From Methanolobus sp. ZRKC5 (GTDB taxonomy: Archaea; Halobacteriota; Methanosarcinia; Methanosarcinales; Methanosarcinaceae): DNA of 64,000 nucleotides. The stretch is from the NCBI RefSeq assembly GCF_038446525.1, contig NZ_CP151792.1, positions 806,001-870,000 on the forward strand, in the 5' to 3' direction. Position numbers and translations under genes: made by a program. Of the stretch, positions 31,796 through 44,473 are shown in pieces (within the stretch, counting starts at the first letter, position 1; the number at the start of each line of letters is the position of its first letter). Below the pieces are notes generated by a model. The model saw only the letters and a list, made by a program, of their open reading frames with translations. It was not told the DNA's origin and searched no databases.

Positions 31796-32940
31796 AGGAT
31801 TTCGATATTCCCTCATTTTAGATCATTAAAGTATTCAAACTCAATTATATCCTCTCATTTTTTATCATTTTGTTTAATTTCTCTTCATTAATCCTTATTT
31901 TTAGTATAGCTCCCGCTATCCTAAATTACTCCTTTGGTTTTTAGTGTCCTCAATTGATGCAGATTAAAACAAAAAGCTGTCATCAACATTTTTGCATTCA
32001 CTCTTTCTACAGTTGTAACAAGAACCTTTCTGGTTTTAAATATTTCTTTTGTCACTGCATACACTCTTTCGCAAGGGACTCTTTTCACACTTATTCTTTC
32101 ATTTCTGAGGATATCCATTATTCCTAAAGGATGTCCTCTTACAGCTCGTTGCATTGTTGCTGCAAAACCTTTTGCTATTGCTCCAAAATATCCTTTATCT
32201 CTATACACCACTTCACCCTTTTCAGACAGATCAACCTGTGAATCGTGAAGTGATGCAGTTGTTGTCTCAAATCTTCTGATTAGTTCATAATCCTTATCAA
32301 TAATTGTATGAAGTTTGTATCCAAAGTGAGATTTACCATTTTTCTTAGTCCAGGTTCCATCTTTGCTTCTTCTTGTTTTCGCATCTTTTCCTCTGAGTAC
32401 ATCTGCTTTTGCATGTCCTGGATCTGAGTGAATAAAAGTTGCATCCTGGATCATTCCTTTTTTAATCTTCAAACCAAGAGCATCAAGCTGATTCTGCATT
32501 TCATCCCACACCGCTTTTTCTTTACCATTGTCGATAATTCTCTTCCTGAATGACCAGACAGTTGTACTGTCTGGTACATATTCAGGAAATCCCAGGAATT
32601 TCCTAAAGGATATCCTGTCAATACACTGCTTTTCAAGCTCAGCATCAGAAAGACCATGCCATTGTTGCAGAACAAGCATCTTGAACATTACAATAACATC
32701 AGCTTCAGGCCGTCCGCCTGAAGCTGTTCTGTTTATGTACATTGACTCCAGAATAGGGCGAAAAGGCTTCCAATCTACTAAATATTCAATTTCAGCAAGC
32801 TTATCTCCGACAGATTGGAGACGCTTATATTCTTCATTTAAGGCAAAATCAGTAAAAGAATCCATAATAGTAAATTTGCTTTGCTATTATTTAAATTTTA
32901 TTGAATTGTATGAGTATTGATGGTAGTTTATCGAAATCCT
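31796..32940 (-). mobile_element. IS5-family insertion sequence, 1145 bp
   Basis: Ends are perfect 12-base inverted repeats AGGATTTCGATA (31796-31807 and, inverted, 32929-32940). One transposase gene fills the element on the minus strand, opposite to mscS. The flanking CTACAG duplication and an intact transposase suggest a recent insertion. The right end contains AT-rich promoter-like sequence for the transposase (about 32880-32900). Confidence 0.92.
31921..32865 (-). CDS. IS5-family DDE transposase
   Basis: 314 residues, apparently intact. The N-terminal helix-turn-helix region has GRPEADVIVMFKMLVLQQWHGLSDAELE. The catalytic DDE triad is D141 (MIQDATFIHSD), D223 (VYRDKGYFGA) and E266 (CERVYA, followed by KEIF). 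It would cut and join the ends of the surrounding element. No frameshift or stop is visible, so it may still be active. Confidence 0.93.
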   Translation of the reverse strand: MDSFTDFALNEEYKRLQSVGDKLAEIEYLVDWKPFRPILESMYINRTASGGRPEADVIVMFKMLVLQQWHGLSDAELEKQCIDRISFRKFLGFPEYVPDSTTVWSFRKRIIDNGKEKAVWDEMQNQLDALGLKIKKGMIQDATFIHSDPGHAKADVLRGKDAKTRRSKDGTWTKKNGKSHFGYKLHTIIDKDYELIRRFETTTASLHDSQVDLSEKGEVVYRDKGYFGAIAKGFAATMQRAVRGHPLGIMDILRNERISVKRVPCERVYAVTKEIFKTRKVLVTTVERVNAKMLMTAFCFNLHQLRTLKTKGVI

Positions 32941-40164: not shown

Positions 40165-41400
40165 ATGAAGATAAGCAAACCACGAGGTACACGTGATTTC
40201 CCCCCGGAAGACACAAAGAAAAGAAGATACGTGGAGAACATACTACGTCAGGTCGTTAAGAATTGGGGATTCAACGAGATAATCACTCCAACATTTGAGA
40301 AACTGGAACTTTTCACACTCAAATCCGGTGAAGGAATAGTAGGGGAACTCTACAACTTCAAAGACAAGGGAGACAGGGAAATGACCCTGCGTCCGGAACT
40401 GACAGCTCCTGTCATGAGAATGTATGTCAATGAGATGCAATCATACCAGCAACCATTGAAGTTGTTCTATTTCGAGAACTGCTTTAGGTATGAGAGACCC
40501 CAGAAAGGACGCTTCAGAGAATTCTGGCAGTTCGGTGTGGAACTCATTGGCAGCAAAAGAGCAGACGCTGATGCTGAAGTCATTGCACTGGCAACCGAGA
40601 TGCTCAAATCCGTGGGTATCAAAGGTGACCTTCACGTGAATAATCTTGGTGTTATCAGAAACCTTCTGAACGTTTTGGAAACCGAGCACCAGAGCAAAAT
40701 AATGAGACTTGTTGACAAGAAAGATGACACAGGACTCAATGATTTCCTTGAGGAAATAAACGCACCTGCAGACCTGCGCATGAAACTCCTTGAACTTATA
40801 TGCCTCACAGGAGAGGGAGCAGTGACAAAGGCACGGGAACTTGTGGGAGACATTCCTGAAATAGAGACATTCCAGGAACTTCTGACTCTTCTGGATACCT
40901 ACGGCGTGGAATATACAATTGATTTTGGAATCGCCAGGGGACTTGACTACTACACAGGCACAGTCTTTGAAATATACGCTGAGGGACTTGGTGCCCAGAA
41001 TCAGGTATGTGGAGGAGGTTCATACAATCTTATCAAACTATTTGGCGGCGGAGATGTGCCATCCACAGGATTCGGCCTTGGATTTGACAGGATAATGGAA
41101 GTCTGTGAGATGGAAGCGCCTGATGACAAGCCGCTCGTTATCATTGCAAAGGACAGTACACGTCTTGATGCTGTGAAAGCTGCTACTAAACTCAGGCCAC
41201 ACATGCCGGTATACAATGACCTGATGAAGAGGAATTTCAAAGCCCAGTTATCCTATGCAAACAACATCGGTGCCAATTATGTGGTAATAATCGGTGAGCA
41301 GGAAGTTGAAGCCGGAAAAGTTACTTTGAAGGACATGAAAAACGGTGAGCAGGAACTTCTGACTCTTGAAGATGTCATTCAAAAACTTACAAACAAATGA
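40165..41400 (+). CDS. hisS: Histidyl-tRNA synthetase
   Basis: 411 residues. Class II motifs: [18 protein letters not shown] at the start, [36 protein letters not shown] (motif 2), [16 protein letters not shown] and the motif-3 stretch [12 protein letters not shown]. The anticodon-binding domain follows. It charges tRNA-His. The stop overlaps the ATG of the first pilin-like gene (ATGATGG), so translation of the pilin-like genes is probably coupled to it. Confidence 0.96.
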
Positions 41401-41891
41401 TGGAAAAATCCCCGATAAGCATCATAAAAAATGAAAGGGCAGCAGATGCCCTTCCCATGAGAATGGTGGTTGCAGTTATTGCCATAGGAGCATTGCTGCT
41501 TCTACTATCAACAGCAGTATCCTCACTACTTGAAAATGAGGAAATGTATGCTACTGAAGCTGTAATATCGGAAATAGAAGGTCATGCTGACCAGATGTCT
41601 TCCAGGGGAGCTGGCAGCAATATAACTCTTGAAATTGATATTCCTTCAAATACAAAACTTGTAATGGGAGCTGTCCCGGGGAAAGAGGATAATTGGCCTT
41701 CCGATTCCCGGAACTACTACATAGAGGTCAACGGAAAGCAAATCATCGGAGAGTCCATTGCATTTTATTCTAATGTTTCACTTGATGGATGCGCTGTCCT
41801 GAGCCCCGGTCCGCACATAATTACCATGGAAAGTGTCCGCGATCAAAATAGAAAAATTTTTATTACACTTAGTGATAAGTCCCAGTTGTAA
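41400..41891 (+). CDS. Pilin-like membrane protein A
   Basis: 163 residues from the ATG at 41400 ([18 protein letters not shown]); an in-frame ATG three bases earlier is an alternative. A charged stretch with ERA precedes one membrane helix (about 21-41, RMVVAVIAIGALLLLLSTAV). The external part is beta-rich with one Cys, ending KIFITLSDKSQL. No named function. The position of the helix, the ERA motif and the size match archaeal type IV pilin-like proteins, but no prepilin peptidase site is certain. Its TAA overlaps the ATG of gene B by one base. Confidence 0.65.
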   Translation: MEKSPISIIKNERAADALPMRMVVAVIAIGALLLLLSTAVSSLLENEEMYATEAVISEIEGHADQMSSRGAGSNITLEIDIPSNTKLVMGAVPGKEDNWPSDSRNYYIEVNGKQIIGESIAFYSNVSLDGCAVLSPGPHIITMESVRDQNRKIFITLSDKSQL

Positions 41892-42390
41892 TGAAAAAAC
41901 GGACAATAGTTAATACCATAGATCCTTCTTCGTTAGTTGGTACGAAAAGCTTTACTGATGATAACACTGCGTGGGTAGACCTGATACTTTCAAAAACAGC
42001 ACTCATCATAGTAACTGTGGTCATCTTTGCCGCAGTATATAATCTGACTTCCATTTCATCAGATATGGTCAAAAAGAATGAGCTGGAAGTACTCGCAATT
42101 GACCTGGCATCAAACATTGATTCGCTGGGAAGTATTCATTCCGGTACAGACAATGCAGTGAAAATATACAATTTTGACAGTTCTGCAAGACAACTAACTA
42201 ACCGTGGCAGACTAAATATCTCAGTCACCGGAGAATATGTAAGCTGCACTTTTTCGGATAGTGGAAACAACCTGGCTGTTGTCAAACCTCTGAATTACAG
42301 GACACTACCCTTTAGTCCCGAAAATCTCAGGAATCTCCTCACAGGAGAATTTGCAGCAGATGGAAATGCAAGCCACCCTGTTAATTCAAT

Positions 42391-42396
42391 ATTTCC
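42391..42396. repeat. Target duplication of the MITE, left copy
   Basis: ATTTCC just before the left inverted repeat, repeated at 42593-42598 just after the right inverted repeat. Six bases. Confidence 0.88.
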
Positions 42397-42592
42397 AGTA
42401 ACTATTCAGCCTGGCACGATTTGCCTATTGGTACTGATTTCATCGAAATAGAGATGTCTGCTCACTAACAATCTAACAATCAAAAAAGCAATCAATAGCA
42501 ACAATCAAAATAAATGATCCTAATGAAATTTACGTTTCAACTTTTTGTCAAGATTGTTATTGATAGCGTTTTTATCAGGCTGAATAGTTACT
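42397..42592. mobile_element. MITE-like element, 196 bp
   Basis: Terminal inverted repeats AGTAACTATTCAGCCTG are identical over 17 bases (42397-42413; 42576-42592). The interior (160 bases) is AT-rich and encodes no transposase; only a short frame MKFTFQLFVKIVI-DS near 42523 is visible. The host sequence ATTTCC is duplicated at 42391-42396 and 42593-42598. The features fit a small nonautonomous transposon mobilised by an unlinked transposase. The repeats do not match the IS5 element at 31796, so another family must supply the enzyme. Confidence 0.9.
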
Positions 42593-42729
42593 ATTTCCAT
42601 ACACAAACCTGACAGAGTTCCTGTCCATTACCGCAGCAGAAGAGTTCTGTTTGAACATCAGTGAAGAAGTCCATATAGAAAAAAAACACGTATTTGTAAC
42701 AGACGGAAGCGAGGTGAATGAACTTGAAT

Positions 42730-43227
42730 ATGTCCTCGTTTACCAGTGATGAAAGAGCTTTTCTTGAGCCGAACAACGATATAATAGCTACCGCAATGGT
42801 GGTTATTGGATTTGTTGTTTTTGCAGCTATCCTGTCAAAGACATTCATCGCATTCAATGACAATTCACAGGCACTTGAAAACTATGAGCAGGCTGCCATG
42901 ATAGCACAGGACATTGCATCTTATCCACCCCTTCAGGGAAGCAGACCTGAACTCATTTCTGCAGAATCACTTGACAGGATTACCACTTCCTCTGCAAATG
43001 AGGAACGCTATATGTTCTTCCAGCGTTTTTCCCCCAATCTTGAGTTTTATGTTGAAGCGGTAACAGACAATGGAAACCACCAATGGACAATTGTAGACGG
43101 GGCAGTTTCACTTAATGGCAGGGATGTCATTGCATCATCAGTGCCAGTTGTCATTGAACTTGGAAGCAATGCACGCTGCGTTCCCGGAACCATTACTGTG
43201 AAGATCATGCAGAACAAGTGGGAATGA
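42730..43227 (+). CDS. Pilin-like membrane protein C
   Basis: 165 residues. The ATG at 42730 is chosen because GAGGTGA (42711-42717) is too close to the ATG at 42718 to serve it. The N-terminus MSSFTSDERAFLEPNNDI carries the DERA motif before a membrane helix (about 18-37, IIATAMVVIGFVVFAAIL). The external part includes YEQAAMIAQDIASYPPLQ and ends VPGTITVKIMQNKWE. It overlaps the end of the intact form of gene B by 20 bases, so B and C were once translationally linked. Function unknown, probably a surface-filament or secretion subunit. Confidence 0.65.
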   Translation: MSSFTSDERAFLEPNNDIIATAMVVIGFVVFAAILSKTFIAFNDNSQALENYEQAAMIAQDIASYPPLQGSRPELISAESLDRITTSSANEERYMFFQRFSPNLEFYVEAVTDNGNHQWTIVDGAVSLNGRDVIASSVPVVIELGSNARCVPGTITVKIMQNKWE

Positions 43228-43258
43228 AACAAGTGGAAATGTGAAAACGGAGATCGAC

Positions 43259-44473
43259 ATGCTACAATCTAAACCCACCGGGAAAAAAAGCCATCTCTCT
43301 GAAATGTTCAGGGATGAGAATGCATTCTCATCAAGCATCGATGCCATTTTCTTCCTAATCCTGGTTTCTATTTCCGCAGTAATTCTTTTGCCTTCTATTG
43401 CAGCAGATGAGCAATATCGATCGGCATCTTATACTTCAGCGCAGGTTATGGACATGTGCCTAATGAATACCATCATGAGCAGCACCGTAGATGAATTTGA
43501 GTACACATTAAAACCCACTGATCTGGCAGGCATCAATGTAAACCTCTCGGAAAATTCAATTCTTGAAGATGCAGAGGAGACAGTATTTACAAAAGAACAA
43601 CGCCATCGCACCTTTTCAGACCTTGTAGCCGAGGGTCTGGTACTGAGCTTGTACCAGACAGAGAACGGTACTATGAAACCTCTTAATCCCATGACAAAAA
43701 TGCAAAGCTTTGAAACTGAAAGGCAAATAGAAGCTCACCTTGAAAGAACCATAGGACAGAGATATAATTACAGATTTGAAGCCCACTGGCAGCCTGTTAT
43801 CGGATATAAACTACAAAGTGATATAGTAATAGGAGAGGAAGCACCTGAAACTGCAATCAAGCAAAAAGTTAGGATATCGCTACCTGTAACATATTTGGTC
43901 ACAAAAGAAGAGATATACAAGCCTTTCAATGAGACAAAAATACACAATGCGATTAATTCTCCTGAGCCGGATAAAGAGCTGCGTGATATGTTCAACGACA
44001 GCATTGGAATTGCATCGGGTGGATGTGCAGAGATAATTACAGATATCGTTTTTCCATATGATTATCTGTCATCACTAAATAGCACTGAGATATCGGTAAA
44101 CAGTGAACAACTGGCATGTCTTGCAGGTCCTGATGATGAAAATTATAGCAGCCCTGTGATACAGAGTGCCCTTGGATGCATGAACTACACAATAAATGAC
44201 CTTTACGGACTGAACATAGCAATAAACCCGGAAGAACAAAGTATCAGCCTGGATATTGTAGACACAGTCAATACTGTAATAATGGATGTGAACACTCAGC
44301 TCATATCAGATCATATCATTAACTACCAGAGTGATGATATCAACAAGACTATCGCACTCATATGTAATACCACGGACAACAGCACAAGATATGAACTTGC
44401 CAACATCCAATTAGATGCAATATATAAAACAGCGAATCCGGCTGGTGCAGACATTGTGCTCATTATATGGTGA
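43259..44473 (+). CDS. Pilin-like membrane protein D
   Basis: 404 residues from the ATG at 43259 (GGAG six bases upstream). A charged segment MFRDENAFSSS precedes a membrane helix (about 27-46, IDAIFFLILVSISAVILLPS), and the rest is predicted exported with several Cys and Asn-X-Ser/Thr sites. The DEN-AF motif parallels DERAF in C. It is the last gene of the hisS-linked group. No transposon or frameshift is visible. Homologues of unknown function (DUF7284-like in haloarchaea, from memory) lie in pilin-type clusters. Confidence 0.62.
   Translation: MLQSKPTGKKSHLSEMFRDENAFSSSIDAIFFLILVSISAVILLPSIAADEQYRSASYTSAQVMDMCLMNTIMSSTVDEFEYTLKPTDLAGINVNLSENSILEDAEETVFTKEQRHRTFSDLVAEGLVLSLYQTENGTMKPLNPMTKMQSFETERQIEAHLERTIGQRYNYRFEAHWQPVIGYKLQSDIVIGEEAPETAIKQKVRISLPVTYLVTKEEIYKPFNETKIHNAINSPEPDKELRDMFNDSIGIASGGCAEIITDIVFPYDYLSSLNSTEISVNSEQLACLAGPDDENYSSPVIQSALGCMNYTINDLYGLNIAINPEEQSISLDIVDTVNTVIMDVNTQLISDHIINYQSDDINKTIALICNTTDNSTRYELANIQLDAIYKTANPAGADIVLIIW

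Follow-up and report, generated by a model that had tools for sequence, protein, structure and literature searches.

A 194-bp MITE with ISBst12-group ends, most likely moved by a resident IS66 transposase, interrupts a gene in a Methanolobus genome

In the 64,000-nucleotide stretch of the Methanolobus sp. ZRKC5 genome analysed here (the window), the reading frame of one gene, denoted gene B, is broken by a short insert, which raises the questions of what the insert is, what moved it and what its arrival did to the gene. We consider it highly probable (about 0.93) that the insert is a MITE of the ISBst12 group of the IS66 family that was mobilised by a resident transposase and recently cut gene B.

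The MITE is 194 bp long, has perfect inverted ends of 16 bp (GTAACTATTCAGCCTG) and is bounded by an exact 8-bp target duplication, TATTTCCA (Table 1). The first-pass annotation of this DNA had recognised an insert with identical inverted ends, a direct duplication and no transposase, all of which stands, the element being without an ORF of note. Its 17-base ends, 196-bp length and 6-bp duplication (ATTTCC) are superseded, because the boundary had been set one base out. The base immediately outside GTAAC is A, C, G or T depending on the copy, so the 17th matching base is part of the duplicated target, not of the MITE end. In total, 202 bp were inserted (194+8), and, as 202 mod 3 = 1, the frame is shifted. 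The ends, the duplication and the multicopy interior establish that the insertion is real, and the element has the defining features of a MITE: it is short, transposase-free and multicopy, with terminal inverted repeats and a target duplication.

Table 1. Features of the gene B locus (window coordinates)
Feature	Position	Strand	Remarks
Gene A, upstream neighbour	41397..41891	+	1-nt overlap with gene B start
Gene B, truncated ORF	41891..42451	+	169 native codons + 17 element-read codons (VTIQPGTICLLVLISSK)
Target duplication, left copy	42390..42397	.	8 bp, TATTTCCA
MITE, subfamily A copy	42398..42591	+	194 bp; identical to 42 other sampled genome copies
Left terminal inverted repeat	42398..42413	+	GTAACTATTCAGCCTG
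Right terminal inverted repeat	42576..42591	-	perfect, 16 bp
Target duplication, right copy	42592..42599	.	8 bp, TATTTCCA
Gene B 3' remnant, detached	42600..42749	+	49 codons + stop; no further stop
Gene C	42718..43227	+	overlaps native gene B end by 26-32 nt, as in relatives
Gene D, DUF7284 protein	43241..44473	+	same cluster

The MITE interior is present in 126 copies (68 forward and 58 reverse) in the 3.05-Mb Methanolobus genome, of which the family makes up about 0.8%, whereas a reversed-pattern control yielded 0 matches in the same genome; together with the exact 8-bp duplications around 70 of the 90 sampled copies, this excludes chance. Exact 14-bp ends spaced 188-200 bp apart delimit 120 elements in this genome, compared to at most 6 perfect-ended elements of this size in any other of the 393 sampled genomes of the phylum. 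Such a copy number is unusual for an archaeon. The 90 copies that were read, on which the subfamily, identity, orientation and duplication figures are based, are evenly oriented (45/45) and form two near-clonal subfamilies, 99-100% and about 89-90% identical to the window copy, with a few intermediates; 43 of them, including the copy in gene B, are identical. At genome positions 209980-210375 (L024), one copy apparently lies inside a copy of the other subfamily.

The first-pass annotation had proposed a search for a full-length IS with the ends of the MITE, and such an IS was found in the genome. The IS copies that were read are 1,622-bp members of the IS66 family that have these ends and are flanked by 8-bp duplications (exact in 10 of 13), and 31 full-length IS66 transposase frames without stops were detected. 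The IS is filled by a single frame of about 477-495 codons that encodes the DDE_Tnp_IS66 (PF03050) and zf-IS66 domains, and its GTAAC..CAG type ends and 8-bp duplication assign it to the ISBst12 group of IS66. Members of this group (ISBst12, ISGst1, ISDge4) likewise have GTAACTATTCAG type ends, an 8-bp duplication and a single transposase ORF with these two domains. ISGst1 on Geobacillus pGS18 has the ends GTAACTATTCASCC and AAAAGAAC on both sides as its 8-bp duplication, and ISDge4 has the ends GTGACTACTCAGCA/GTAACTGCTCAGCA, an 8-bp repeat and one ORF (PMC12898284). Unlike these elements, the MITE lacks an ORF, and its interior is unrelated to that of any sampled IS66.

Comparison of the MITE with the resident IS revealed nothing in common beyond the ends, so the ends, the length of the duplication and the pattern of the target carry the case for mobilisation in trans. 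By this evidence, the MITE is most likely mobilised in trans by the resident IS66 transposase, which most likely recognises the common 16-bp ends and would paste the MITE into an AT-rich, TA-flanked 8-bp target, duplicating the 8 bp. The genome also contains, at about 94808 (L014), an IS66 left end with a further DDE transposase ORF no more than 100 bp beyond it, and the window includes a DUF772/DDE_Tnp_1 transposase at 31921-32865. Related IS66 transposases in other genera, including Methanosarcina (L224, L225, L227, L230, L231, L233, L234, L235), have a single in-frame TAG where residue E115 of the transposase of this genome lies, a position at which the copies of this genome have a sense codon; the TAG fits the amber (pyrrolysine) transposase family noted previously (PMC2933860). 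The N-terminal in-frame stops in some Methanolobus-type IS66 frames are located upstream of the likely start.

The duplicated 8-bp target is AT-rich, with TA on each side (T 61%, A 58%; G+C 2-4% at these positions), as computed from sites free of an adjoining copy, and positions 4, 6 and 7 of the outward flanks show a further bias toward the bases of the element itself. At six junctions, two elements are exactly 7 bp apart, a spacing explained by the resemblance of the element ends themselves to the target (AT-rich, TA-flanked): the 8-bp target of the newer copy took in the seven flanking bases and the initial G of the resident end, followed by TA. The duplications of the tandem pair at genome positions 256269 and 256470 reveal which copy came second. 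MITE copies at 728871 and 739011, in opposite orientation, have swapped reverse-complement duplications, which indicates that the stretch of about 10 kb between them has been inverted. Intragenic insertions such as that in gene B are a minority: an ORF score trained on the window classed 8 of the 78 clean insertions as intragenic, versus 57 of 101 control positions taken from these flanks. The count is approximate, as the gene B insertion itself fell just under the threshold.

What was lost from gene B can be read from its reconstruction. Removal on paper of the MITE and one duplication (202 bp) restores a single frame of 218 codons plus stop that ends at 42749, as the first-pass annotation had it; the loss, put there at about 50 native residues with 17 gained, is 49. 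In nature, precise excision of the MITE would be unlikely, given that the movement of ISDge4, an ISBst12-group element, is stated to be copy-and-paste (PMC12898284). Relatives of the reconstructed protein are encoded in 75 other Methanosarcinaceae genomes (76 of 112 counting this one), and the only matches in this genome are the two halves at this locus, with no second copy of gene B. In ten aligned relatives, the gene is uninterrupted at the site and keeps the lost C-terminus, which mostly reads ELEYxLVYQ or near it. Homologues across the genus and the family thus run through to the same end, as expected if the MITE cut an intact gene; none was found to stop at residue 186 with an element-coded tail, and the relatives show an uninterrupted site instead of the element.

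The lost 49 residues include the family-invariant positions I195, V208, L215, V216 and Q218 and the last three strands in the AlphaFold model of a gene B homologue (mean pLDDT 80), so that loss of function is likely and gene B is probably non-functional in this genome, even if the 186-residue product could keep partial function. The insertion looks recent, judging from the remnant, which has acquired no further stop, and from the identity of the element to 42 other sampled copies. By landing at TATTTCCA, the element shifted the frame of gene B, whose product lost its final 49 residues and gained 17 element-coded residues.

Could this replacement have provided gene B with a new, selected C-terminus instead of knocking it out? 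The truncated ORF is open, and one left-end frame of many family members yields tails of about 22 codons, but frame 1, in which the tail of gene B is read, gives tails of 3 to 39 codons across relatives, the element shows no codon periodicity, the segment lost from gene B is conserved across the family, and the shortage of intragenic insertions relative to the controls argues in the same direction. We consider a functional tail very improbable. Coding capacity of the MITE was rejected, given the lack of codon periodicity and the variable tail lengths. Function of element-coded tails has been proposed for some Rickettsia palindromic elements, which similarly add element-coded residues when inserted within ORFs (PMC10969869); unlike those cases, the frame here is shifted, the protein is truncated and intragenic copies are a minority.

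The initial description of gene B as pilin-like is not borne out. A Pfam profile search with gene B gave no match, and a fold search against the PDB with the AlphaFold model of a gene B homologue, a good model in which a long N-terminal helix is followed by a beta domain, gave nothing significant; neither search identifies gene B as a type IV pilin. The protein looks membrane-anchored, and the neighbours of gene B include DUF7284 and DUF7286 proteins. Intact gene B had been predicted to overlap gene C by 20 bases. The overlap is confirmed, but is more likely 26-32 nt long, with gene C starting at ATG 42718 or TTG 42724, matching near relatives, in which the two genes overlap by 26-32 nt. Because the overlap is conserved in relatives, the proposal that the insertion parts gene B from gene C is supported: the stop of gene B has moved upstream, to a distance of about 266 nt from gene C. 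We infer an effect on B/C co-translation, such that the insertion would entail, along with the loss of gene B function, loss of B-C coupling and possibly a polar effect on genes C and D.

Of the 112 Methanosarcinaceae genomes, 37, belonging to 6 of 14 genera, contain nucleotide matches to the MITE; many are full-length at 66-91% identity, and some are short and partial. The exact 14-bp end is present in 52 of the 112 genomes. Copies from several genera are 192-197 bp long, mostly with exact 8-bp duplications, and since the interior of about 160 bp remains recognisable across these genera, the MITE represents an old non-autonomous lineage rather than a deletion product of the resident IS. Recent derivation from the 1,622-bp IS by internal deletion would account for the shared ends and duplication length, but the interior has no similarity to the resident IS and has relatives in genomes of other genera, which makes this origin exceedingly unlikely. 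Origin from any sampled IS66 was rejected as well, with no match to the MITE interior beyond the ends in about 25 elements.

This dissimilarity, together with the identity (66-91%) and length (192-197 bp) kept across several genera, would be compatible with an interior that is a conserved functional unit, such as a transposase-binding array, a promoter or terminator, or a small RNA, selected in the element or the host. We regard this as unlikely: RNAalifold predicts conserved pairing at the ends only, so that a conserved RNA structure was rejected, codon periodicity is absent, no relevant Rfam match was found (the sole match to the covariance models at E ≤ 1 is outside the element and far below the gathering score), and successive bursts from masters able to transpose could, by themselves, preserve both length and interior. 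We similarly doubt the broader proposal that the lineage has persisted and been amplified repeatedly across Methanosarcinaceae without depending on any single IS, by borrowing any end-matching ISBst12-group transposase, its interior being selected for the element or the host. If this were true, the selected interior might, for instance, be a transposase-binding array able to outcompete the parent IS.

In MAGs labelled Bacteroidetes, Anaerolineales, Burkholderiales and Lachnospiraceae (L265, L278, L280, L281, L283, L284, L285), the same 14-bp perfect ends enclose elements of 189-199 bp whose interiors are unrelated; an exact 8-bp duplication accompanies nearly all of them. This length range was set by the search pattern and is thus no evidence for a universal length. 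The MAG labels may conceal contamination: copies labelled 'Bacilli' and 'Bacteroidales' look archaeal. Other spacings between the ends, about 206-337 bp, also occur. Methanococcoides, ANME-3-labelled and Methanothrix records contain other interior types between the same ends, and in an IMG/VR viral contig (L291) they flank a 195-bp element whose interior is Methanothrix-like.

In a survey of archaeal MITEs, many resemble the partner IS in the inverted repeats alone (PMC3852290, Table 4). The present family is likewise small, multicopy and similar to its partner only in the ends, and the surveyed hosts include Methanosarcina. However, none of the 18 new MITEs of the survey was assigned to IS66 and the top copy number was 34 (PMC3852290), compared to IS66 ends, about 126 copies and a family that extends across genera in our case. 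An earlier record of the 194-bp family in Methanosarcina is possible among the 26 MITE families that predate the survey. The Correia elements of Neisseria are similar in size (about 200 bp) and copy number (more than 120; PMC10969869), but belong to a different host domain. Events of the kind seen in gene B are known, and this insertion is a clear example; what sets it apart is the copy number, age and spread of the family.

For annotation, gene B in this genome should be marked as disrupted. For the biology of the methanogen, the findings describe an apparently recent MITE burst with two near-clonal subfamilies, in which a candidate mobiliser is resident, the target rule can be read and one inversion has occurred between copies. 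The occurrence of the same ends in archaea and in several bacterial phyla illustrates how conserved the ISBst12-group recognition sequence is, and, given the conserved interior, what sustains a MITE lineage becomes a directly testable question.
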